A DNA stretch of 64,000 nt from assembly GCA_903828675.1 (NCBI GenBank), contig CAIKND010000182.1, positions 1-64,000 of the forward strand, in the 5' to 3' direction. This stretch comes from an uncultured Acidobacteriaceae bacterium (lineage in GTDB: Bacteria; Acidobacteriota; Terriglobia; Terriglobales; Acidobacteriaceae). Position 1 is the stretch's first letter; every line of letters begins with the position of its first letter. Shown here piece by piece: positions 2,659 to 61,860 of this stretch. The translations under genes and the position numbers were made by a program. The notes under the pieces are model-generated. The model was given only the letters and a program-made list of their open reading frames with translations. It made no database searches and was not told the origin of the DNA.

Positions 2659-2754
2659 GTGCCCCACCCAAACCGCGCCTTTTGCGATTTGGGTGGGATA
2701 GCAAAACACTCAACCACGCAGCTTTTCTATTCCCTATTCCCTATTCCCTATTCC
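2659..2754. repeat. Composite 3'-end repeat: palindrome plus CTATTCC heptamers
   Basis: The palindromic part runs 2659-2700, with arms CCCACCCAAA and TTTGGGTGGG around the loop. A linker (agcaaaacactcaaccacgc) follows, then four perfect tandem CTATTCC units (2727-2754). The tract enters the 3' end of the symporter gene: its stop codon (TAG, minus strand, 2734-2736) begins one heptamer, and the last residues (GIGNRE) are translated from the repeat. The same palindrome-linker-heptamer order recurs at several other gene ends in the window. Confidence 0.85.
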
Positions 2755-4149
2755 CTGCACGCCTTCCCACTTCGCCACCACCGCCGCCGCCATGCAGTTC
2801 CCCACCACATTCAGCCCCGTCCGCCCCATATCCATCAGCGTGTCCACGCCAAGCAGCATCAGCACGGCAGCCGTGGGAATCTGAAACGACCCGGCCACCC
2901 CCATCAGCACCACCAGCGTTGCGCGCGGCACACCCGCAATGCCCTTGCTTGAAAGGGCAAGCGTGGCCAGCAGCACGATCTGCTGCATTACCGTCAGATG
3001 CAGCCCGCCGGCCTGCGCAGCAAACAGCGCCGCCATGGCGAGATAGAGCGTCGACCCCGTGAGATTGAAGCTATAGCCCATCGGAATCACAAACGACACA
3101 ATCCAGCGCGGCACGCCGAACTCTTCCATGCGTTCCATCGCCAGCGGTAGCGCCGCCTCCGACGAAGTAGTCGCAAACCCAATCGCCGCTGGCTCAGTCA
3201 CAGCCATGGCAAACTTCCACACCGGCACCCGCGCCACCATCAAAATCGGCACAAACACAAACACAACGAAAATCACCAGCGTCCCGTAGCAGGTAGCAGC
3301 CAGCTTCAGCAGCGGCAGCATCGTCGCCAGCCCCATGCTGCCAACGGTATAGGCCAGCGCCGCGCCCGCCGCAACCGGTGCGCAATACATGATGAAGCGC
3401 GTCAGCCGAAACATCGTCTCTGTCAGCGACTGCAGCACGCTCACCAGCGGCGCGCGCTTGGCCTCTGGCAGCGTAGCCAGCGCGGAGCCGAAGAGCAGCG
3501 CAAATACCGCCACTTGCAAAATCTGGTTCTGCGCCACCGCCTGCGCTATGTTCTCCGGGAAGATATTCAGCAGCACACCCTGCCACCCGGCCTGGTGCGC
3601 AATTGGGGCCGCAGCTTGAATCGAAGCAGGCAGCACCACGCCAACTCCAGCTTTCGTCAGATTGATGGCGACCGCGCCCAGAATCAGCCCCAGCGTCGTC
3701 ACCACTTCAAAGAACACGATCGACTTGATGGCGACCCGCCCCACGCCTTTCAATTCGCCATGTCCCGCAATCCCGGTCACGATGCCGCCAAAGATCAGCG
3801 GCGCAACGATCATGCGAATGAGACGTAGAAAGATTTCGGCAATAAAGTGGGTTTGCGTGGCCAACTGTGGCGCATCCACGCCCAGTTCCGCCCCGGCCAA
3901 CATGGCAAAGAAAGTCCACACCAGCAGCGAACGCCGCCGCCATGCAAAGGGAACAAATAGCCCAAAGCCGGTCCAGCGCAGCGCCACGCCGGCTTCCGCG
4001 CGTGTGTTCAACAGCCCGGCAAGCAGGCCGGCCGCAAACAGCAAACCCGCGGCAAATGTCAGAGCGCGCAACAACGCAGCACCGGATCGCGGATCAGGCG
4101 ACTCCGGTTTGCGCTGCAAAGATAGTTCTTGGTTGTTCAAGGCTTCCAT
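2734..4149 (-). CDS. Dicarboxylate/amino acid:cation symporter (DAACS family)
   Basis: This is a glutamate/dicarboxylate:H+ or Na+ symporter-like protein of the inner membrane, 471 residues with many hydrophobic segments. Family landmarks are visible: FATTSSEAALPLAMERM (the serine-rich re-entrant loop region), MGYSFNLTGSTLYLAMA (the position of the usual NMDGT motif) and SSKGIAGVPRATLVVL (second hairpin loop). The NMDGT position reads NLTGS, so the family's cation- and substrate-binding Asp appears to be replaced and substrate preference may differ from GltP or DctA. The N-terminus carries extra hydrophobic segments before the usual TM1. The C-terminal residues and stop come from a heptamer repeat. 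It stands alone, flanked by repeats on its 3' side. Confidence 0.88.
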   Translation of the reverse strand: MEALNNQELSLQRKPESPDPRSGAALLRALTFAAGLLFAAGLLAGLLNTRAEAGVALRWTGFGLFVPFAWRRRSLLVWTFFAMLAGAELGVDAPQLATQTHFIAEIFLRLIRMIVAPLIFGGIVTGIAGHGELKGVGRVAIKSIVFFEVVTTLGLILGAVAINLTKAGVGVVLPASIQAAAPIAHQAGWQGVLLNIFPENIAQAVAQNQILQVAVFALLFGSALATLPEAKRAPLVSVLQSLTETMFRLTRFIMYCAPVAAGAALAYTVGSMGLATMLPLLKLAATCYGTLVIFVVFVFVPILMVARVPVWKFAMAVTEPAAIGFATTSSEAALPLAMERMEEFGVPRWIVSFVIPMGYSFNLTGSTLYLAMAALFAAQAGGLHLTVMQQIVLLATLALSSKGIAGVPRATLVVLMGVAGSFQIPTAAVLMLLGVDTLMDMGRTGLNVVGNCMAAAVVAKWEGVQGIGNRE

Positions 4150-22469: not shown

Positions 22470-22510
22470 GTGCCCCATCCTTCCCGCGCACTTTGCAGGA
22501 AGGGTGGGAA
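22470..22510. repeat. GTGCCCCATCC-type palindrome
   Basis: CCCATCCTTCC and GGAAGGGTGGG flank CGCGCACTTTGCA in the gap between the lyase and SDR genes. It is the only clear copy lying inside a probable operon, and the track's longer SDR ORF starts within it. Confidence 0.8.
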
Positions 22511-27511: not shown

Positions 27512-27605
27512 GTGCCCATCCATTCCGTGTTCTTTACGGAATGGGTGGGACAGCAACCAACTAAACCCCGCGCACTTCTGTCCACTGTCCGCCCTCCACT
27601 GCTTC
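27512..27605. repeat. Composite repeat: palindrome plus CTGTCCA heptamers, not at a gene end
   Basis: CCCATCCATTCCG/CGGAATGGGTGGG (27512-27551) is followed by the linker agcaaccaactaaaccccgcgc and four 7-bp units CTGTCCA, CTGTCCG, CCCTCCA, CTGCTTC (27578-27605). Unlike most copies it does not abut a recognisable stop codon. Confidence 0.8.
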
Positions 27606-28450: not shown

Positions 28451-28660
28451 GTGCCCCATCCATTTGTCATTCTGAGCAGCTTTGCTCGCGGCAGCGCGTT
28501 ACGTCCGGGGATGAGCGGCCGCCGTCCACCTCGCAAAAAAAGCTCCGTGCCCCATCCATTCCGCGCTCTTTGCGGAATGGGTGGGACAGATCAACACTCA
28601 ACCGGGCCGTTCATCAGGAGCGGAGCGTAGCGGAGTCGAAGAACCTGCTTCTTGCAATTC
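28451..28660. repeat. Cluster of palindromic repeats between coaD and aspC
   Basis: A half copy of the palindrome (GTGCCCCATCCATT, 28451-28464) runs into a different repeat (TCATTCTGAGCAGCTTTGCTC). A full copy follows at 28547-28587 (CCCATCCATTCCGCG / TGCGGAATGGGTGGG), then GGAGCGTAGCGGAGTCGAAG (28619-28638). The half copy looks interrupted by the second family, so repeats appear to have inserted into one another. Confidence 0.65.
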
Positions 28661-46187: not shown

Positions 46188-46257
46188 AAAAATCCTAGAT
46201 CAAGACGCATGTCAATTTCTGGCCAGAAACCTGGAACTACGCCACCGCACACCACAA

Positions 46258-46290
46258 ACTGTTCACTGTGCACTGTCCACTGCCAACTGC
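46258..46290. repeat. Heptamer tract encoding the LysC C-terminus and stop
   Basis: ACTGTTC, ACTGTGC, ACTGTCC, ACTGCCA and ACTGC in tandem. Read on the minus strand, it encodes the final residues QLAVDSAQ and the TGA stop (46263-46265) of lysC. Confidence 0.8.
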
Positions 46291-47690
46291 TTCCTCGCTT
46301 CCACGTCGAAGATCGCCGGATCGGGCTCCTTGAAAAACGCCGCATGCAGTGACCGCACCGCCTCTTCCGCGTCGTCCTCTTCGATCATGAAGCTCATGTT
46401 GATTTCGCTCGCACCCTGCGAAATCATGCGCACATTCACGTGCCGCACGGCGTTGAACACCTGCGCGGCAATCCCGTGCTGTCCGCGGATATCTTCGCCC
46501 ACCATGCACACAAGCGCCTTCTTGCCCTCGTACTTCACGTCCGCCAGCTTGCCCAGATCCGCCGCGATGGCCGGCAGCTTGTCCGTCGAGTCCACGGTCA
46601 GGGACACGCTCACCTCTGAAGTCGAAACCATGTCCACCGGGCATTGGTGCTTGTCGAAAATCGCGAAGATTTGGCTCAGGTACCCGTGCGTCATCAGCAT
46701 GCGGCTCGCCACCACGTCGATGATGCTCAACTTCTTCTTTACTGAGATCGACTTGAACGGGCTCTTGCAGTGAGGGGCCAATGAAATGATCCGCGTCCCC
46801 TCGTTGCTCGCATTGCGGCTGTTCAGCACCAGTACCGGAATGTTCTTCTTCACGGCCGGCAAAATTGTCGCTGGGTGCAGTACCTTGGCCCCGAAGTAGG
46901 CCAATTCCGCCGCCTCTTCAAAGCTGATCACCTTCACCCGCAGCGCATCCGGACATACCCGCGGATCGGCCGTCATAATGCCGTCCACGTCCGTCCAGAT
47001 CTCGATCGCTTCGGCCGTCAGCGCCCCACCGATCAGTGCCCCCGTAAAGTCCGACCCCCCGCGCCCTAGCGTGGTCGTGATTCCGGCCTCGTTCGACGCG
47101 ATAAACCCGCCCATCACCGGCACCTTGCCCTGCGCCGCCAGAGGAAGCAGCTTCTCCTGGGCGCGCTTTTCGATCAGGTCGTCCTGCGGAATCGCCTTCT
47201 GGAACTGCGAGTCGGTAATGATAATGTCGCGCGCGTCCACGTGGACGCCCTCCATGCCTAACTCGCGAAACGCCTGGGCGACGATGCGGCTCGATACCCG
47301 CTCGCCATAACTCACAATCAGGTCGGAGATGCGCGGAGTCAGCTCCAGAATCGCCGCCAGCCCGCGCAGTACCTCATCCAGAGAATCGAATTTCTGGTCG
47401 ATGAAGTCCAGCAGAGCGGCGATATCGGAGGTATTCTTCACCAGCGCAATCGCCGTGTCCCGATGCCGTGCCCGCAGCCGCGAACTAATCGCCAGCGCGC
47501 CCGTCCGGTCCCCGACTGAGGCCGCGCCCGCAGCCCGCAGCAACTGGTCGGTCACCTTGGCCATGGCGCTCACCACCACCACCGGGCTCTTGCCCTGCGC
47601 CACACGCCCGGCCACAATCGCCGCAGTACGCCCAATCGCCGCCGGATCCTCCACCGACGTCCCGCCAAACTTCATCACTACCAGGTTCAT
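46263..47690 (-). CDS. lysC: Aspartate kinase
   Basis: This enzyme phosphorylates aspartate, the committed step toward lysine, threonine and methionine. The 475-residue protein is the monofunctional long form: VMKFGGTSVEDPAAI, GERVSSRIVAQAFRE, TTLGRGGSDFTGALIGGALTAEAIEIWTDVDGIMTADPRV and EAAELAYFGAKVLHPATILPA. Two ACT regulatory domains follow (from about residue 320: LSIIDVVASRMLMTHGYLSQIF and KKALVCMVGEDIRGQHGIAAQVF), implying feedback inhibition. The last residues and stop derive from a heptamer repeat. It lies between asd and dapB. Confidence 0.96.
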   Translation of the reverse strand: MNLVVMKFGGTSVEDPAAIGRTAAIVAGRVAQGKSPVVVVSAMAKVTDQLLRAAGAASVGDRTGALAISSRLRARHRDTAIALVKNTSDIAALLDFIDQKFDSLDEVLRGLAAILELTPRISDLIVSYGERVSSRIVAQAFRELGMEGVHVDARDIIITDSQFQKAIPQDDLIEKRAQEKLLPLAAQGKVPVMGGFIASNEAGITTTLGRGGSDFTGALIGGALTAEAIEIWTDVDGIMTADPRVCPDALRVKVISFEEAAELAYFGAKVLHPATILPAVKKNIPVLVLNSRNASNEGTRIISLAPHCKSPFKSISVKKKLSIIDVVASRMLMTHGYLSQIFAIFDKHQCPVDMVSTSEVSVSLTVDSTDKLPAIAADLGKLADVKYEGKKALVCMVGEDIRGQHGIAAQVFNAVRHVNVRMISQGASEINMSFMIEEDDAEEAVRSLHAAFFKEPDPAIFDVEARKQLAVDSAQ

Positions 47691-47721: not shown

Positions 47722-47763
47722 GTGCTCCATCCTTACGGCTCTTCTCTATCGCAAGCGTGGGAT
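47722..47763. repeat. Diverged GTGC(C/T)CCATCC palindrome
   Basis: GTGCTCCATCCTTACGG...CGCAAGCGTGGGATGG lies in the asd-lysC gap. The arms are imperfect, so this is an ageing copy. Confidence 0.55.
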
Positions 47764-47810: not shown

Positions 47811-47901
47811 GTGCCCCATCTTTGCGATTTTTCTCTATCGCAAGGGTGGGAAAGCATAAAGGCAACCCCGCGCTTTTCTATTCCCTGTTCCCTGCTCTCT
47901 A
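47811..47901. repeat. Composite repeat at the asd gene end
   Basis: Palindrome GTGCCCCATCTTTGCGA...TCGCAAGGGTGGGA, then the linker aagcataaaggcaaccccgcgctttt, then CTATTCC, CTGTTCC, CTGCTCT and CTA. The final CTA is the complement of the asd TAG stop. Confidence 0.8.
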
Positions 47902-48945
47902 AAGCTTGTTCATGCTCGCCAGCAATTCCGCGTTCAGAATGGTAGCCCCAGCCGCTCCGCGCACCGTATTGTGCGAGAGCAGCACAAACTTCCAGTCCAG
48001 CAGGTTGCACGGCCTCAGCCTTCCAACCGTCACCGCCATGCCGTTCCCGCGATTCCGGTCCAGGCGCGGCTGCGGACGGTCAGGCAACGCTGTCCATTGC
48101 ACCGGAACAGCAGGAGCAGTGGGCAAATCCCGCCCAGCCAGCGGCTGGAACTCGGCCCACGCCGCCAGAATTTCCTCCTGCGTGGCCTTCTTCCTTAGCT
48201 TCAGCGAAACGCACTCCGTATGCCCATCCACCACCGGAACCCGGTTGCAATGGGCGGTCATGCCCGCCGCCAGAGGCGTCACCGCATCCCCAGCCAGCTT
48301 GCCCAGCAGCTTCAGCGTCTCGGCTTCCATCTTCTCTTCTTCGCCGCCGATGTAAGGAACCACGTTGTCCAGAATGTCCATCGAAGCCACGCCCGGATAA
48401 CCCGCGCCGCTCACCGCCTGCATCGTGGTCACAAAAATCTGCTCAATGCCAAAGCGTTCCTCGATCGGCTTCAGCGCCATCACCAGCCCAATCGTCGAGC
48501 AGTTCGGATTGGTCACCATGTATCCGCCACCCTGCTGGCGCGACGGCTGGGCCTCGATCAGGTGCAGATGGTCCGCGTTCACCTCCGGAATCACCAGCGG
48601 CACATTCGGCGTCATGCGGAAGGCGCTCGAGTTCGACAGCACCGCACAGCCGGCATTGGCGAACTTCGGCTCCATCTCACGCGCAATGCCCGCGTCAATC
48701 GAGGCAAAGATCACCTTCGGCGCGCCCTCGGGCTCGGCGTCGGACACCATCATCTTGGCGATCCGCTCCGGCATCGGCGTATCCAGACGCCATTTGGCCG
48801 CCTCCCCGTAAGTCTTGCCGCTGGACCGGTCACTGGCCGCAAGCCACGCGACCTCGAACCACGGGTGGTTTTCAAGCAGTTGGATGTAACGTTGGCCGAC
48901 CATGCCAGTCGCGCCCAGGATGCCAATTGGTTGTTTGTTTTTCAT
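47899..48945 (-). CDS. asd: Aspartate-semialdehyde dehydrogenase
   Basis: Reduces aspartyl phosphate from LysC to aspartate semialdehyde with NADPH. From the ATG at 48945 the protein has about 348 residues; the track's first codon is a GTG four codons earlier and neither has a strong Shine-Dalgarno. PIGILGATGMVGQRYIQLLENHPWFEV and the catalytic Cys in TNPNCSTIGLVMALKP are clear, with TAHCNRVPVVDGHTECVSL near the substrate site. The long N-terminal motif and overall length resemble the archaeal/fungal-type enzymes rather than the E. coli type. The stop codon lies at the end of a heptamer repeat. Confidence 0.94.
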   Translation of the reverse strand: MKNKQPIGILGATGMVGQRYIQLLENHPWFEVAWLAASDRSSGKTYGEAAKWRLDTPMPERIAKMMVSDAEPEGAPKVIFASIDAGIAREMEPKFANAGCAVLSNSSAFRMTPNVPLVIPEVNADHLHLIEAQPSRQQGGGYMVTNPNCSTIGLVMALKPIEERFGIEQIFVTTMQAVSGAGYPGVASMDILDNVVPYIGGEEEKMEAETLKLLGKLAGDAVTPLAAGMTAHCNRVPVVDGHTECVSLKLRKKATQEEILAAWAEFQPLAGRDLPTAPAVPVQWTALPDRPQPRLDRNRGNGMAVTVGRLRPCNLLDWKFVLLSHNTVRGAAGATILNAELLASMNKL

Positions 48946-52943: not shown

Positions 52944-53040
52944 GTGCCCCATCCATTAGCCTTCTTCCTGGCGAATGGGTGGGAAGGCATGAACCGCGCC
53001 CTCGCAGCTTTTCCTGTTCACTGCCCACTGTCCACTGCCG
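52944..53040. repeat. Composite repeat at the aldo/keto reductase gene end
   Basis: Palindrome CCCATCCATTAGCC/GGCGAATGGGTGGG (52944-52984), the linker aaggcatgaaccgcgccctcgcagctttt, then CTGTTCA, CTGCCCA, CTGTCCA, CTGCCG (53014-53040). The tract ends at the complement of the TAA stop codon (53041-53043). Confidence 0.82.
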
Positions 53041-53919
53041 TTACGCCAGCGCCAGGTTCAGATTGTCGATCGCCTCGTCAATCTCCGCCGTACTCTTGTA
53101 ACCCACCGTCACCGAATCCACGCCCGCATTCTTGAACGCGAACCGCATCGCCCTCTGCCGGTCCTCGTGATTGAATGTGCCTTCTCCAACCAGCTTCATG
53201 CTGATCACGCCCATTCCCTCTTTGCGAACCTGCTTCACATGCGCGACAACCTCATCCACATTGCCCGGATCTCTGCTGTCGTACTGTTCGGCGTCCATGA
53301 TCGTGCCTTTGTGGTTCATGCGAATCATCGCCACTTGCAGCCAGTCATTGCCCGGCATCAGGCGCAACGCCGGAAGACCATGCACGCTGGCGCCGCGACT
53401 CCTGATCGTCTTCTTCTGCTCGGCTTCCAGGATCGCGTCCTGCCACCGCGCCGTATCTTTCACCCACGTCCCCGTGTGCTGGTAGTGCAGCAGCATAATG
53501 TCGAAGTAATCCGTGTCCGAGTTCTTGTGCAACTCTGCCAGTTTCGCCGCCGGGTCAATGCCATCGGCCGTCGTCACCTTCGACATCAGCGTGTAACTCT
53601 CCCGCGGAATTCCCTTCAGCGCCACCGCCAGCATCTTCTGCGATGCGCCATACCCCTCCGCTGTCTCAAAGAAGCGGATGCCGCGGTCATAGGCATGATG
53701 CACAAGCCGCGTTAGCCCCTCCTGCCCAAGTTGCTGTTGGATTTCGCCGCTAAAGCTCCCCGTGCCCAGGGCCAGCCGCGTCACCTTGATGTTTGATCGT
53801 CCCAGCGTCACCCAATCGGTCGCCGTCGCGCGTTCCGCATGCAGCAGGTTTCCCGCGCCCGCCAGCGCGCCCGCAGCAACGCCAGCCTTCAGAAAATTTC
53901 GTCTTGAAAGATTTGACAT
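53041..53919 (-). CDS. Tat-exported aldo/keto reductase
   Basis: A 292-residue aldo/keto reductase-fold protein with a twin-arginine signal (MSNLSRRNFLKAGVAAGALAGAGNLLHA) and a strong GGAGG 4 nt before the ATG at 53919. Barrel features: VTLGRSNIKVTRLALGTGSF, the tyrosine-containing FETAEGYGASQKMLAVALKG, ESYTLMSKVTTADG with the catalytic Lys, and DYFDIMLLHYQHTG. In DTAEGYG-like motifs the Tyr is the proton donor. The shortened C-terminus (CFKN-type barrel end, GVDSVTVGYKSTAEIDEAI) is normal for this periplasmic subfamily. Substrate unknown. Confidence 0.87.
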   Translation of the reverse strand: MSNLSRRNFLKAGVAAGALAGAGNLLHAERATATDWVTLGRSNIKVTRLALGTGSFSGEIQQQLGQEGLTRLVHHAYDRGIRFFETAEGYGASQKMLAVALKGIPRESYTLMSKVTTADGIDPAAKLAELHKNSDTDYFDIMLLHYQHTGTWVKDTARWQDAILEAEQKKTIRSRGASVHGLPALRLMPGNDWLQVAMIRMNHKGTIMDAEQYDSRDPGNVDEVVAHVKQVRKEGMGVISMKLVGEGTFNHEDRQRAMRFAFKNAGVDSVTVGYKSTAEIDEAIDNLNLALA

Positions 53920-54290: not shown

Positions 54291-54358
54291 GTGCCCCTGG
54301 TCTCGCTATTGAGACCTGGGAAATCAACAGCTGTTCACTGTCCATTGTTCACTTTTCA
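54291..54358. repeat. CCAGGTCTC-type hairpin plus heptamers at a permease gene end
   Basis: GTGCCCCTGGTCTC-GCTATT-GAGACCTGGG (one arm mismatch), then CTGTTCA, CTGTCCA, TTGTTCA, CTTTTCA (54331-54358). The final TCA is the complement of the permease TGA stop. Here the heptamers follow a different palindrome family that begins with the same GTGCCCC. Confidence 0.75.
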
Positions 54359-55594
54359 CTCGTACCGCAGCGCCTCAATCGGGTCCAGGTTCGCCGCGCG
54401 TATCGCCGGAATCATCCCGCTCACCAGCCCGGTTATAGCGAGAATCACCGTTGCCACAATCACCGAAGTTGGCGAAATCAGCAGTTGTATATCCGCGTCC
54501 GACGCATTCTTGGCCAGCGCGCTATAAAAAGGAATGCGCCCCACCAGCGCGGAGATCACGTACGCCAACGAGATTCCGCACACCCCGCCAACCCCTGTTA
54601 TCGCCATCGCTTCGGCCAGAAACTGCAACAGGATATGGTGTCTCTGCGCGCCCAGCGCCTTCTCTATGCCGATCTCTCGCGTGCGCTGCTGCACCGCCAC
54701 CAGCATGATGTTCATCAGCCCAATGCCCGCAATCCCCAGCGTCAGCGCGCCCACCAGAGACAGCAGGACCTGGAGTGCGATGGAGACGATGCTGAATTGA
54801 TGAAGTTGGGATTGCAGGTTGGCCACAAAGATGGCGCGATGGTCGGAGGGACGGAAATGATGGGCTGCGCCGAGCGTATTTCGGAGGTCTTTCTCAATGA
54901 CTTCGTTATCGCCGCGATAGTTGAACCAGATACCGTCCAGGTACGTTGTGTCCCTGAGATCGCCCATGGTCGAGAACGGTATCCAAATCGAGGTGTTGAT
55001 GTTGTTTTCGCCTTCGACCATCTTGGGGCGCAGAACTCCTACCACGGTAAACATGATTCCGTTGATACGAATGGACTCTCCAATCGCATAGCCACCAGAG
55101 AAGAGCTTGGTTTTGGCTTCACTCCCAATGACGCAGACGTGGGCTCGCTGCCGCTCTTCCTGTCCGTTGTACAGGCGGCCTTCGACCGGGTCGAGGACGA
55201 GGATATCCAAGCCTTCAGGGCGCACACCGTTCACCGACCACGTGTAGGAGTGGAGGTCGTTCTGGATAGTTGAGTCCCGAAACATGACGGGGCTGATCGA
55301 GGAAATGCCGGGGAGCGAATTCCAGATGCGATCGACATCATCGTACGTCAGGCGCACGCGAACTCCGGCTTTGTCAGCGCCGGCCTGCTCGGAAGTGCGA
55401 CCGCCGTACACTTCCATGTGGTTGACGCCCCACTGGGCAAAGATGCTCTCGATGGCGCGCGAGAAACCCGCACCATACGCCAGCAGCAACACGACCGTGG
55501 CAATGCCCCAGGCCATGCCGATCATGGTGATGGCTGTGCGCCGGCGGTTGTATATCATCGCCTCCCAGGCCTGGCCGAGAATGTCTCTCAACAT
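54356..55594 (-). CDS. MacB-like ABC transporter permease (second gene)
   Basis: A 412-residue FtsX/MacB-type permease: an N-terminal transmembrane helix (TAITMIGMAWGIATVVLLLAYGAGF), a large periplasmic MacB_PCD domain, and three C-terminal helices around VGALTLGIAGIGLMNIMLVAVQQRTREIGIEKALGAQRHHIL, ending DPIEALRYE, the family's C-terminal signature. No ATPase domain is fused and none adjoins it. It starts 83 bp after the first permease and should form a heterodimer with it or act as an alternative partner. Confidence 0.9.
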   Translation of the reverse strand: MLRDILGQAWEAMIYNRRRTAITMIGMAWGIATVVLLLAYGAGFSRAIESIFAQWGVNHMEVYGGRTSEQAGADKAGVRVRLTYDDVDRIWNSLPGISSISPVMFRDSTIQNDLHSYTWSVNGVRPEGLDILVLDPVEGRLYNGQEERQRAHVCVIGSEAKTKLFSGGYAIGESIRINGIMFTVVGVLRPKMVEGENNINTSIWIPFSTMGDLRDTTYLDGIWFNYRGDNEVIEKDLRNTLGAAHHFRPSDHRAIFVANLQSQLHQFSIVSIALQVLLSLVGALTLGIAGIGLMNIMLVAVQQRTREIGIEKALGAQRHHILLQFLAEAMAITGVGGVCGISLAYVISALVGRIPFYSALAKNASDADIQLLISPTSVIVATVILAITGLVSGMIPAIRAANLDPIEALRYE

Positions 55595-57155: not shown

Positions 57156-58361
57156 GTGGCTGCATCGCGAAAGAGCAAAAAATTCTGGATCTGGCTGGGC
57201 ATCGGTGCCTTTTTCGTTGTGGTAATTGCTGGCTTTGGGCTGATGCGTCTCGCCAAGGGAACCACCATTGATCCCAACAAACTCGCCAAAGTCACCCGCG
57301 GCGACGTAGCCCAATCCGTCGTGGCCACCGGGAAAATCCATCCCATCACCCAGGTCGAGGTCAAGAGCAAGGCCTCCGGCATCGTGGAAAAGCTCTATGT
57401 CGATATCAACAACGAGGTTAAGAAGGGCCAACAGCTCGCCCAGCTCGATCAGGAGGAGATTCAGGCCCAGGTTTCCGCGCAGCGCGCTCAACTCGCCGGG
57501 GCTGAGGCCAACGTCTCCACATTGCAGGCCAATATCGATCAGGACAAGGTCAACGCCGCCGCCCCCGATCTGCCCATGTACAAGGCCACGCTCGACCGCA
57601 ACCTCGAAATGCAAAAAGAAGGCATCGTCAGCCGTCAGGCTCTCGACGACGCCAACAAGGACTACCTCGCCGCGCTCACCCGCCGCGATTCCGCCAAAGC
57701 CCAGATCGGCGTCGACTCGGCCAAGCTCAAGCAGGCTCGCGCCCAGGTCATGCAAAGCCAGGCCAGCCTCAAGCAGCTTGAGGAGCAGCTCGGCTACACT
57801 ACCATCCTTGCTCCCATGGATGGCGTCATCCTCTCCCGCGATGTCGAAATCGGTGACGCCGTCAGTTCCATCCTCATCCTCGGCTCCACCGCCACCCTCG
57901 TTATGACAGAAGGCGACACCACCGAGGTTTATGTACAAGGCAAGGTCGACGAGGCAGACATCGCCCACGTCTACATGAACCAGCCCGCGCGCATCAAGGT
58001 TGAGAGTTTCCGCGACCGCCTCTTCTACGGCAAGGTCACCAAGATCGCTCCCATGGGCGTCGAAAAGGACAACGTAACCACCTTCGAGGTCCGTGTCTCC
58101 ATCAACAACCCCGGAGGCGAGCTCAAATCCCAGATGACCGCCAACGCCGAAATTATGCTCGACGAGCACAAGGGCGTCCTCACTGTCCCTGAAAACGCCG
58201 TCATGTACGACAACAAGAAGAACGCCTCCGTTGCCGTCCCTGACAAGCACGAGAAAGACGGCACCCGCAAGGTCCCCGTCAAAGTCGGCCTCTCCAACGG
58301 CTCCGTAACCGAAATCCTCAGCGGCCTCAAAGAGGGCGATCAGGTAGTGCTGCAGCAGTAA
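57156..58361 (+). CDS. MacA/HlyD-like periplasmic adaptor protein
   Basis: A membrane-fusion protein of 401 residues anchored by one N-terminal helix (FWIWLGIGAFFVVVIAGFGLM). It has the biotinyl-lipoyl-like half-motifs (GDVAQSVVATGKIHPITQVEVKSKASGIVEKLYVDINNEVKKGQQLAQLD), a long coiled-coil hairpin rich in Ala and Gln (AQVSAQRAQLAGAEANVSTLQANI to AQVMQSQASLKQLEEQL), TTILAPMDGVILSRDVEIGD closing the lipoyl domain, and a beta-barrel (VKVGLSNGSVTEILSGLKEGDQVVLQ). A GTG start at 57156 sits 5 nt after GGGAGG. It should link the divergent MacB-like permeases to an outer-membrane channel. Confidence 0.92.
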   Translation: MAASRKSKKFWIWLGIGAFFVVVIAGFGLMRLAKGTTIDPNKLAKVTRGDVAQSVVATGKIHPITQVEVKSKASGIVEKLYVDINNEVKKGQQLAQLDQEEIQAQVSAQRAQLAGAEANVSTLQANIDQDKVNAAAPDLPMYKATLDRNLEMQKEGIVSRQALDDANKDYLAALTRRDSAKAQIGVDSAKLKQARAQVMQSQASLKQLEEQLGYTTILAPMDGVILSRDVEIGDAVSSILILGSTATLVMTEGDTTEVYVQGKVDEADIAHVYMNQPARIKVESFRDRLFYGKVTKIAPMGVEKDNVTTFEVRVSINNPGGELKSQMTANAEIMLDEHKGVLTVPENAVMYDNKKNASVAVPDKHEKDGTRKVPVKVGLSNGSVTEILSGLKEGDQVVLQQ

Positions 58362-58362
58362 G

Positions 58363-58434
58363 AGAGCAGTTGTCAGTGGTCAGTGAACAGCCGGGTGCCC
58401 CATCCTCGCCACGCTTTTGTGGCTAGGGTGGGGA
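58363..58434. repeat. Heptamer tract plus palindrome after the adaptor gene
   Basis: AGAGCAG, TTGTCAG, TGGTCAG, TGAACAG (58363-58390) begin 2 nt after the TAA stop of this plus-strand gene. The palindrome GTGCCCCATCCTCGCCAC...GTGGCTAGGGTGGGG (58395-58434) follows. The order stop-heptamer-palindrome mirrors the minus-strand genes. Confidence 0.8.
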
Positions 58435-58479: not shown

Positions 58480-58570
58480 GTGCCCCATCCATTCCGCGCC
58501 TTTTGCGGAATGGGTGGGACAGCAAAACACTCAACCGGGTTGGTCTTTCACTGTCCACTGCCCACTGTCG
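58480..58570. repeat. Composite repeat at the ABC ATPase gene end
   Basis: Palindrome CCCATCCATTCCGCG/TGCGGAATGGGTGGG (58480-58520), the linker agcaaaacactcaaccgggttggt, then CTTTCA, CTGTCCA, CTGCCCA, CTGTCG leading into the TCA complement of the stop codon (58571-58573). The linker is nearly identical to that at 2701. Confidence 0.85.
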
Positions 58571-59407
58571 TCACCAGCTATGCAGCCACTCCTCGTCCCT
58601 GCCAATCCTCACCGGAGCATTGAACAGCTCGCTTAGCCGCTTCTCGGTCAGCAGTTCCTCCCGCGCTCCATCCCCCACAATCCGTCCGTCCCGCATCAGA
58701 ATGATCCGCTCTATCTCGGGCAGAATATCTCCCAGGTGATGCGTCACCAGCACCAGCCCTGTTCCCTCCTGCGCCAGCCTCCTCAGCGTCTCCCGCAGTT
58801 CCCTCTGCGCCGCCAGGTCCAGCGCATTCGACGGCTCGTCCAGCAGCAGTTGCTTTGGCCTGTGCACCAGCGCCCGCGCAATCAGAATCCGCCGCCTCTC
58901 CCCCGCTGACATCGTGCCCACCATCTGTTTGCTCAGGTGCGTCGCCTCCATGCGCTCTAGCGCCTCGCGGGCCCGCGCTCGCATCTCTGCGGTCACATGC
59001 AGATTCGGCCACAGCGTCGACGCAGAAAAGAAACCCGCCGTCACCGCATCCAGCCCGGAAGTCACGGCCGTGCGCTCTCCCGGCAACTCCGCGCCCATCA
59101 GCCCGGCGCCAACCACGCCAAAGTGCTGCCTTAACTGTGTAAGGTCCCACCGCTCGCGCCCAAAAATCCGCACCTGCATCCCCGGCCGCACCACCGGATA
59201 CACCTGGCAAGTCATCGCCAGAATCAGCGTCGACTTCCCGCACCCGTTCGGCCCCAGGATCGCCACGTGCTCCCCGGCGCGAATCGTCAGGTTTACGTCG
59301 TGCAACACCACGCGGTCGCCGCGCGCTACGTTCACCACGCGCAGTTCCAAAAATTCAGCTTCTTTTTCGATTGTCTTCGCCCGGCCTTGCTGATCGCTGT
59401 CCATCAT
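58571..59407 (-). CDS. ABC transporter ATP-binding protein
   Basis: A stand-alone ABC ATPase of 278 residues. Walker A is ILGPNGCGKSTLIL, the signature is MSAGERRRILIARALVHRP, Walker B is QLLLDEPSNALD, and the switch His is in VLVTHHLGDI. The central TCQVYPVVRPGMQVRIFGRERWDLTQLR resembles ATPases of the iron/molybdate uptake type (YlmA/ModF-like) rather than LolD/MacB. No permease is adjacent in the same operon, and the MacB-like permeases 1.6 kb away belong to another class, so its partner is unknown. Confidence 0.88.
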   Translation of the reverse strand: MMDSDQQGRAKTIEKEAEFLELRVVNVARGDRVVLHDVNLTIRAGEHVAILGPNGCGKSTLILAMTCQVYPVVRPGMQVRIFGRERWDLTQLRQHFGVVGAGLMGAELPGERTAVTSGLDAVTAGFFSASTLWPNLHVTAEMRARAREALERMEATHLSKQMVGTMSAGERRRILIARALVHRPKQLLLDEPSNALDLAAQRELRETLRRLAQEGTGLVLVTHHLGDILPEIERIILMRDGRIVGDGAREELLTEKRLSELFNAPVRIGRDEEWLHSW

Positions 59408-61814: not shown

Positions 61815-61860
61815 GTGCCCCATCCTTGCCACGCTCTTGTTCTTGTGGCTAGGGTGGGAT
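61815..61860. repeat. GTGCCCCATCC-type palindrome after argJ
   Basis: GTGCCCCATCCTTGCCACGC...GTGGCTAGGGTGGGA with a longer loop (tcttgttctt), 33 bp after the argJ stop. No heptamer tract follows. Confidence 0.78.

Follow-up and report, generated by a model that had tools for sequence, protein, structure and literature searches.

Repeats at gene ends in the window

The window, by which we mean the whole 64,000-nucleotide stretch of DNA analyzed here (contig C182), belongs to an acidobacterial genome of 6.39 Mb in 241 contigs. It contains short palindromes, whose head is variable (GTGCCCCACCC at 2659, GTGCCCATCC at 27512 and GTGCCCCATCTTT at 47811), and arrays of tandem heptamers, distributed as follows:

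2659-2698, + strand: GTGCCCC-headed palindrome
2722-2760, - strand: heptamer array (GGGAATA)n, whose third TAG is the stop codon of an SDF-family gene (2734-4149, - strand)
22470-22509, + strand: palindrome without heptamers, 14 nt past a + strand gene
27512-27550, + strand: palindrome, then a degenerate heptamer-like tract (27580-27605) with no called stop codon adjoining
28547-28586, + strand: palindrome without heptamers, similar to sub-family A (below)
46257-46290, - strand: heptamer array (CAGTGnn)n that overlaps the end of an aspartate-kinase-like gene (46263-47690, - strand) and has no palindrome
47722-47763 (approximate), + strand: degenerate second palindrome, GTGCTCCATCC...GCGTGGGATGG, read from the sequence, in the semialdehyde dehydrogenase-aspartate kinase spacer
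47811-47851, + strand: palindrome in the same spacer
47874-47901, - strand: heptamer array TAGAGAG-CAGGGAA-CAGGGAA-TAG, starting within the semialdehyde dehydrogenase stop codon (gene 47899-48945, - strand)
52944-52984, + strand: palindrome
53014-53040, - strand: heptamer array (CAGTGGA)n, immediately past the stop of an aldo/keto reductase gene (53041-53919, - strand)
54330-54360, - strand (polarity unclear by script): heptamer-like array without a GTGCCCCATCC palindrome, at the end of a MacB-like gene (54356-55594, - strand)
58365-58390, + strand: heptamer array past the stop of an HlyD-family gene (57156-58361, + strand), with the palindrome after the array
58395-58433, + strand: palindrome
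58480-58519, + strand: palindrome
58546-58570, - strand: heptamer array past the stop of an ABC-transporter gene (58571-59407, - strand), forming an inverted pair with 58365-58390
61815-61859, + strand: long-loop palindrome without heptamers

Because the SDF-family gene terminates inside its own heptamer array, repeat sequence may encode its final residues. The original prediction held that palindrome, linker and heptamer tract occur together at five sites and always in that order. Palindromes do lie at all five, and clear arrays accompany four of them (2722-2760, 47874-47901, 53014-53040 and 58546-58570), the fifth being the degenerate tract at 27580-27605, which failed every threshold for period-7 arrays. 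The order is not constant, as the array at 58365-58390 precedes the palindrome at 58395-58433.

The statistics below were gathered from a 1.60 Mb sample of the genome sequence, in which a home-made hexamer-scored ORF finder called 1187 genes (85% coding). Part of this sample was picked because heptamers were present, so densities in it should not be taken as typical; the choice has less effect on distances and orientations given an array. Palindrome stem arms were assessed by direct pair counts, and a complete genome of the same genus (G061) was used for comparison.

Dispersal and polarity of the palindromes

The exact pattern GTGCCCCATCC-N(8-30)-GGGTGGGA has 187 matches in the 6.39 Mb genome (93 forward and 94 reverse), which supplies the copy count that the original prediction had proposed as a check; the reverse of this pattern, used as a control over the whole genome, has none. 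Among 28 distinct 40-mers the seven variable pairs of the stem are standard in 181 of 196 cells, a value that never exceeded 129 in shuffles, and one T-G pair within the stem is conserved. The copies fall into several sub-families whose arms co-vary. In sub-family A some 90 nt surrounding the stem are conserved, and sub-families B and D have terminal words that read as inverted repeats (e.g., ATCCGGCAA...TTGCCGGAT in B). Such conserved flanks on dispersed copies indicate that the palindromes have been copied. The palindromes are mostly extragenic (only 6 of 121 copies lie inside called genes), many of them 25-60 nt past stops, and just 3' of them is a CAGCA/TAGCA-like sequence. Where two lie close together they are head-to-tail, as at 58395/58480 in the window and at 64305/64438/64571 in contig C128.

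The B and D palindromes sit in MITE-like modules of about 100 bp with ends that look like inverted repeats (ATCCGGC...GCCGGAT), near ATA/ATAA; examples are on the minus strand near 38538 in contig C95 and near 31591 in C53.

A search for a Y1/REP transposase gene, also proposed in the original prediction, found five Y1 transposase genes (L001-L005) in the genome. Two of them are each bracketed by inverted GTGCCCC-headed palindromes with arms that differ from the ATCC type (at 1317-1348 and 1889-1920 for L003, and at 1217-1250 and 1833-1861 for L005), and the L005-type palindrome has at least four dispersed copies (one in C213, two in C237 and one in C29). L001, L002 and L004 are flanked instead by a second palindrome family with CTTCAG/CTTTAG loops, and in the fragmented assembly of this genome a Y1 gene with palindromes of the dominant ATCC sub-family on either side was not found. 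REP sequences are known with RAYT genes, and Y1/HUH genes bracketed by inverted palindromes are known as TIRYT/TIRtrons (PMC3733652; PMC6006769); TIRYT genes have already been reported from Acidobacteria (PMC3733652; PMC6006769). The palindromes described here resemble REP sequences in being short (20-40 bp), imperfect and present in many extragenic copies, and the L005 sub-family, but only that one, has the TIRYT/TIRtron arrangement of a Y1 gene between terminal inverted palindromes that are also dispersed. They differ from REP/RAYT systems in having no GTAG tag at the stem foot, the conserved head here being GTGCCCC; from REPINs and BIMEs in being solitary or head-to-tail and not in inverted pairs; and from REP/TIRYT systems in that their orientation tracks GC skew and their dominant ATCC sub-family has no identified Y1 partner here. 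They are thus a variant of REP-like repeats, probably of the TIRYT/RAYT type and moved by Y1 enzymes. The REP-type mobility proposed in the original prediction is supported in the case of the palindromes, given their dispersed sub-families, conserved flanks, Y1 genes and strand polarity (below), but not for the composite.

The palindromes are strongly polar. Neighbors at least 300 bp apart lie on the same strand in 75 cases and on opposite strands in 7 (p=1.7e-15), and 97 of 110 copies are oriented according to the sign of the local GC skew (p=1.5e-16); there is no correlation between orientation and gene strand (rho 0.03). Where the skew reverses inside contigs C213 and C199, the palindromes reverse too. 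In G061, 29 of 30 palindromes are concordant with the skew of their own 20-kb segment. The TTCA-loop palindromes, the kind that flanks the other Y1 genes, are skew-concordant in 20 of 21 cases. Y1 transposases act on single-stranded DNA, and one important supplier of it is the lagging-strand template (PMC6006769). This polarity is therefore most naturally read as strand-polar insertion. The best reading is that the palindromes spread on single-stranded DNA, using one exposed strand; TIRYT/RAYT-type Y1 (HUH) transposases would probably mobilize them, and the strand exposed in DNA replication would fix their direction, with the result that orientation follows GC skew. The strong polarity along GC skew, seen for solitary REP-like palindromes in two congeneric genomes, would be expected from spread on one exposed strand.

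The skew domains themselves change sign many times around the complete chromosome of G061 (C1; L231-L250, L271-L290), and similar domains occur in contigs C213, C199 and C36 of the present genome, with no correlation with gene strand (rho about 0). Near dnaA (5.32 Mb) the G061 skew has the sense opposite to that of a G-rich leading strand. Given these sign changes and the mismatch at dnaA, the connection between skew and replication direction is one that we infer only.

Heptamer arrays at gene boundaries

In noncoding DNA close to gene ends a lag of 7 stands far above the neighboring lags and is the only one in strong excess, and so the heptamer arrays are not chance occurrences. Their unit has the consensus [CT]AGnnnn, with classes that include [CT]AGGGAA, CAGTGGA, CAGTTCT and CAGCTTT, and the usual layout is a stop codon, 2-5 mostly purine bases ending in G, and then CAGnnnn repeats. 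Among 61 polarized arrays, 52 are nearer the ORF they point away from (p=1.8e-8) and 44 lean to the G-rich strand (p=7e-4). The distance to stop codons, which the original prediction proposed to measure, is sharply limited: 30 of 35 stop-side arrays begin no more than 15 nt from the stop, where uniform placement within the same gaps gives an expectation of 7.8 and a maximum of 18 in 20,000 simulations, and 33 of the 35 lie within 60 nt. On the start side 15 of 26 arrays are within 60 nt, mostly 10-60 nt upstream and on the antisense strand. Facing pairs of arrays are present in 15 intergenic regions (14 simple and one with extra arrays) and outward-facing pairs in none. Duplexes between facing arms are more stable than those that arms of different loci form (mean -34.3 versus -22.4 kcal/mol, p=5e-5), although arm pairing alone is no proof of an RNA role.

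The arrays differ at orthologous sites. Most congeners lack an array in the semialdehyde dehydrogenase-aspartate kinase spacer; the arrays that do occur there are built of CAGGGAA units here, CTAGCTA in L095 and CAGCTTT in L098; all three begin directly past the stop, and those of L095 and L098 have a facing partner before the downstream start. At another orthologous spacer the arms are AGTTC in this genome and AGCT in G061, and seven array-bearing spacers are all longer than the array-free ortholog, by 26 to 292 nt. Since both the presence of arrays and their units differ at orthologous spacers, arrays have been gained and units replaced at the same sites. Farther afield, at least 115 stretches of the GTDB genome set contain three exact GGGAA(C/T)A units; they come mostly from Cyanobacteria but also from Acidobacteriaceae, Nitrospiraceae, Clostridia, Lentisphaerota, Gemmatimonas, Bacteroidetes and an archaeon. 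In cyanobacterial and other loci, too, these arrays point outward and lie close to stops (within 20 nt in 28 of 55 cases); in the phylum of the present genome this unit is patchy (10 of 297 genomes).

Heptamers of this kind at stop codons have so far been described mainly in cyanobacteria and Xanthomonas. The G-rich heptameric repeats GGGAATC of Xanthomonas and GGGGAYT of Nostoc (Rehm et al. 2015, PMC4692102) are intergenic; those on the coding strand lie within 50 bp of a stop, and those on the antisense strand upstream of ORFs (PMC4692102). The arrays here have this same placement and, like the G-rich heptamers and the STRR described earlier in Calothrix/Nostoc, they are short intergenic 7-nt arrays that read away from the nearest ORF. 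We therefore take them to be the repeat kind of Rehm et al. (2015) in a new host with added features, the differences being the acidobacterial host, facing arms that pair, and unit classes that switch at orthologous sites. The GGGAAYA arrays here have GGG tracts that might form G-quadruplexes, whereas the CAGTGGA, CAGTTCT and CAGCTTT arrays have none, so that a G-quadruplex would not be a general feature. The TAACTGA direct repeats of Beggiatoaceae, Cyanobacteria and Bacteroidetes (PMC4679880) are likewise heptameric, tandem, intergenic and patchy across phyla, but they have a single fixed unit and lie mostly just upstream of start codons. With the terms tried, our literature search found no paper on such heptamers in Acidobacteria, and the present arrays extend this little-studied group to that phylum, with a sharp positional rule, paired arms and turnover of units at orthologous sites.

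Co-residence of the two repeats and its probable explanation

Are the palindrome and the heptamer array parts of one element? The original prediction, which treated them as a single non-autonomous composite, largely fails here under the refuting condition that it set itself: the parts occur independently and their adjacency is little enriched. Within the window, the palindromes at 22470, 28547 and 61815 have no array, and the arrays at 46257-46290 and 54330-54360 have no GTGCCCCATCC palindrome; in the 1.60 Mb sample, 29 of 40 array-bearing intergenic regions lack a palindrome and 74 of 85 palindrome-bearing regions lack an array. Counted per intergenic region, the association has an odds ratio of 3.0 (p=0.005), which drops to 1.9 (p=0.17) when the window is left out. 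The heptamers are tied to the edges of genes, are mostly free of palindromes, lie on either side of a palindrome where there is one, and belong to a repeat class also found in cyanobacteria. The apparent constant order arises without a joint element from the strand asymmetry that orients both parts: where the skew is negative the palindromes are on the + strand, and the arrays, at the ends of minus-strand genes, are mostly on the - strand, so that the array must lie to the right of the palindrome. The apparent composite is therefore the co-residence of two separate repeats at gene ends, and two systems that resemble one can now be told apart.

Our favored explanation, which we consider likely, is that two independent repeat systems, REP-like palindromes and heptamers of the STRR/G-rich type, share the free space at gene ends. 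The heptamer arrays start no more than a few nt from a stop codon, or else some 10-60 nt ahead of a start codon, and point away from the gene; often they form facing arms that are able to pair into a long imperfect hairpin. After insertion into the only free spacer they would persist as tolerated or mildly useful mRNA-end hairpins. That palindrome, linker and heptamer tail make up a single non-autonomous mobile element moved as a unit seems to us quite unlikely, and we set it aside on the grounds of independent occurrence and reverse order. The palindrome-linker-heptamer order is seen in the four clear cases in the window and again at C114 9948, C104 2206 and C213 1280, linker words recur, and, with the window counted, antisense palindromes near stops are enriched beside arrays (6 of 30 stops with an array versus 19 of 721 without, p=2.5e-4). 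However, most copies of each part stand alone, the enrichment is not significant without the window (2 of 25 versus 19 of 691, p=0.16, and p=0.17 per region as above), the order is reversed at 58365-58433 and at C21 26016, the heptamer classes that follow palindromes differ, and the heptamers start at the stop codon and have no fixed position relative to the palindrome. One linker word, CCCCGCGCTTTTC, does recur between some palindromes and heptamers, and a small joint sub-family sharing this linker may exist.

The covarying stems, the many palindromes 25-60 nt past stops, the complementary facing arrays that lie between stop and start in the semialdehyde dehydrogenase-aspartate kinase spacer of relatives (with facing arms elsewhere too), and the finding that most similar repeats in Xanthomonas are transcribed (PMC4692102) would all suit selected RNA 3'-end or intercistronic structures such as terminators or mRNA stabilizers. 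We nevertheless regard this as unlikely, because palindrome direction tracks skew and not gene strand, most orthologous spacers have no arrays, and the repeats match no known RNA family in Rfam; an intrinsic terminator is rejected, since the GC hairpin of the palindrome is followed by no T-run. Strong polarity along skew domains in two genomes might also mean that the palindromes are polar chromosome-organizing signals of the KOPS/AIMS kind, their orientation being held by selection and not by insertion bias, but the long conserved flanks in sub-families point to recent copying, G061 has few copies (30 by the pattern used), and another family of palindromes, polar in the same sense, looks like Y1 ends; we consider this highly improbable. 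For the heptamers, some repeat-adding or templated end-repair activity might write units outward from gene edges, much as in telomere addition, on the 3' ends at both sides of a break or gap. We rate this as distinctly improbable; if true, it would explain the outward polarity on both sides, the matched facing arms, the spread across phyla and the replacement of units at orthologous sites. The positional rule, the paired arms and the turnover of units make the unexplained origin of the heptamers testable.

Several simpler accounts of the heptamers were rejected. A three-frame stop-codon module suits the TAGGGAA arrays (the stop at 2734 is inside one), but the CAGTGGA and CAGTTCT arrays contain no stop codons and follow the same rule; GGA binding sites of the CsrA type are absent from the CAGTTCT and CAGCTTT classes; and simple slippage of a single unit does not fit arrays that mix related units (e.g., C221 152526). 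The longest array in the sample (C234:5962-6037) has about ten GGGAATA units and no called stop beside it.
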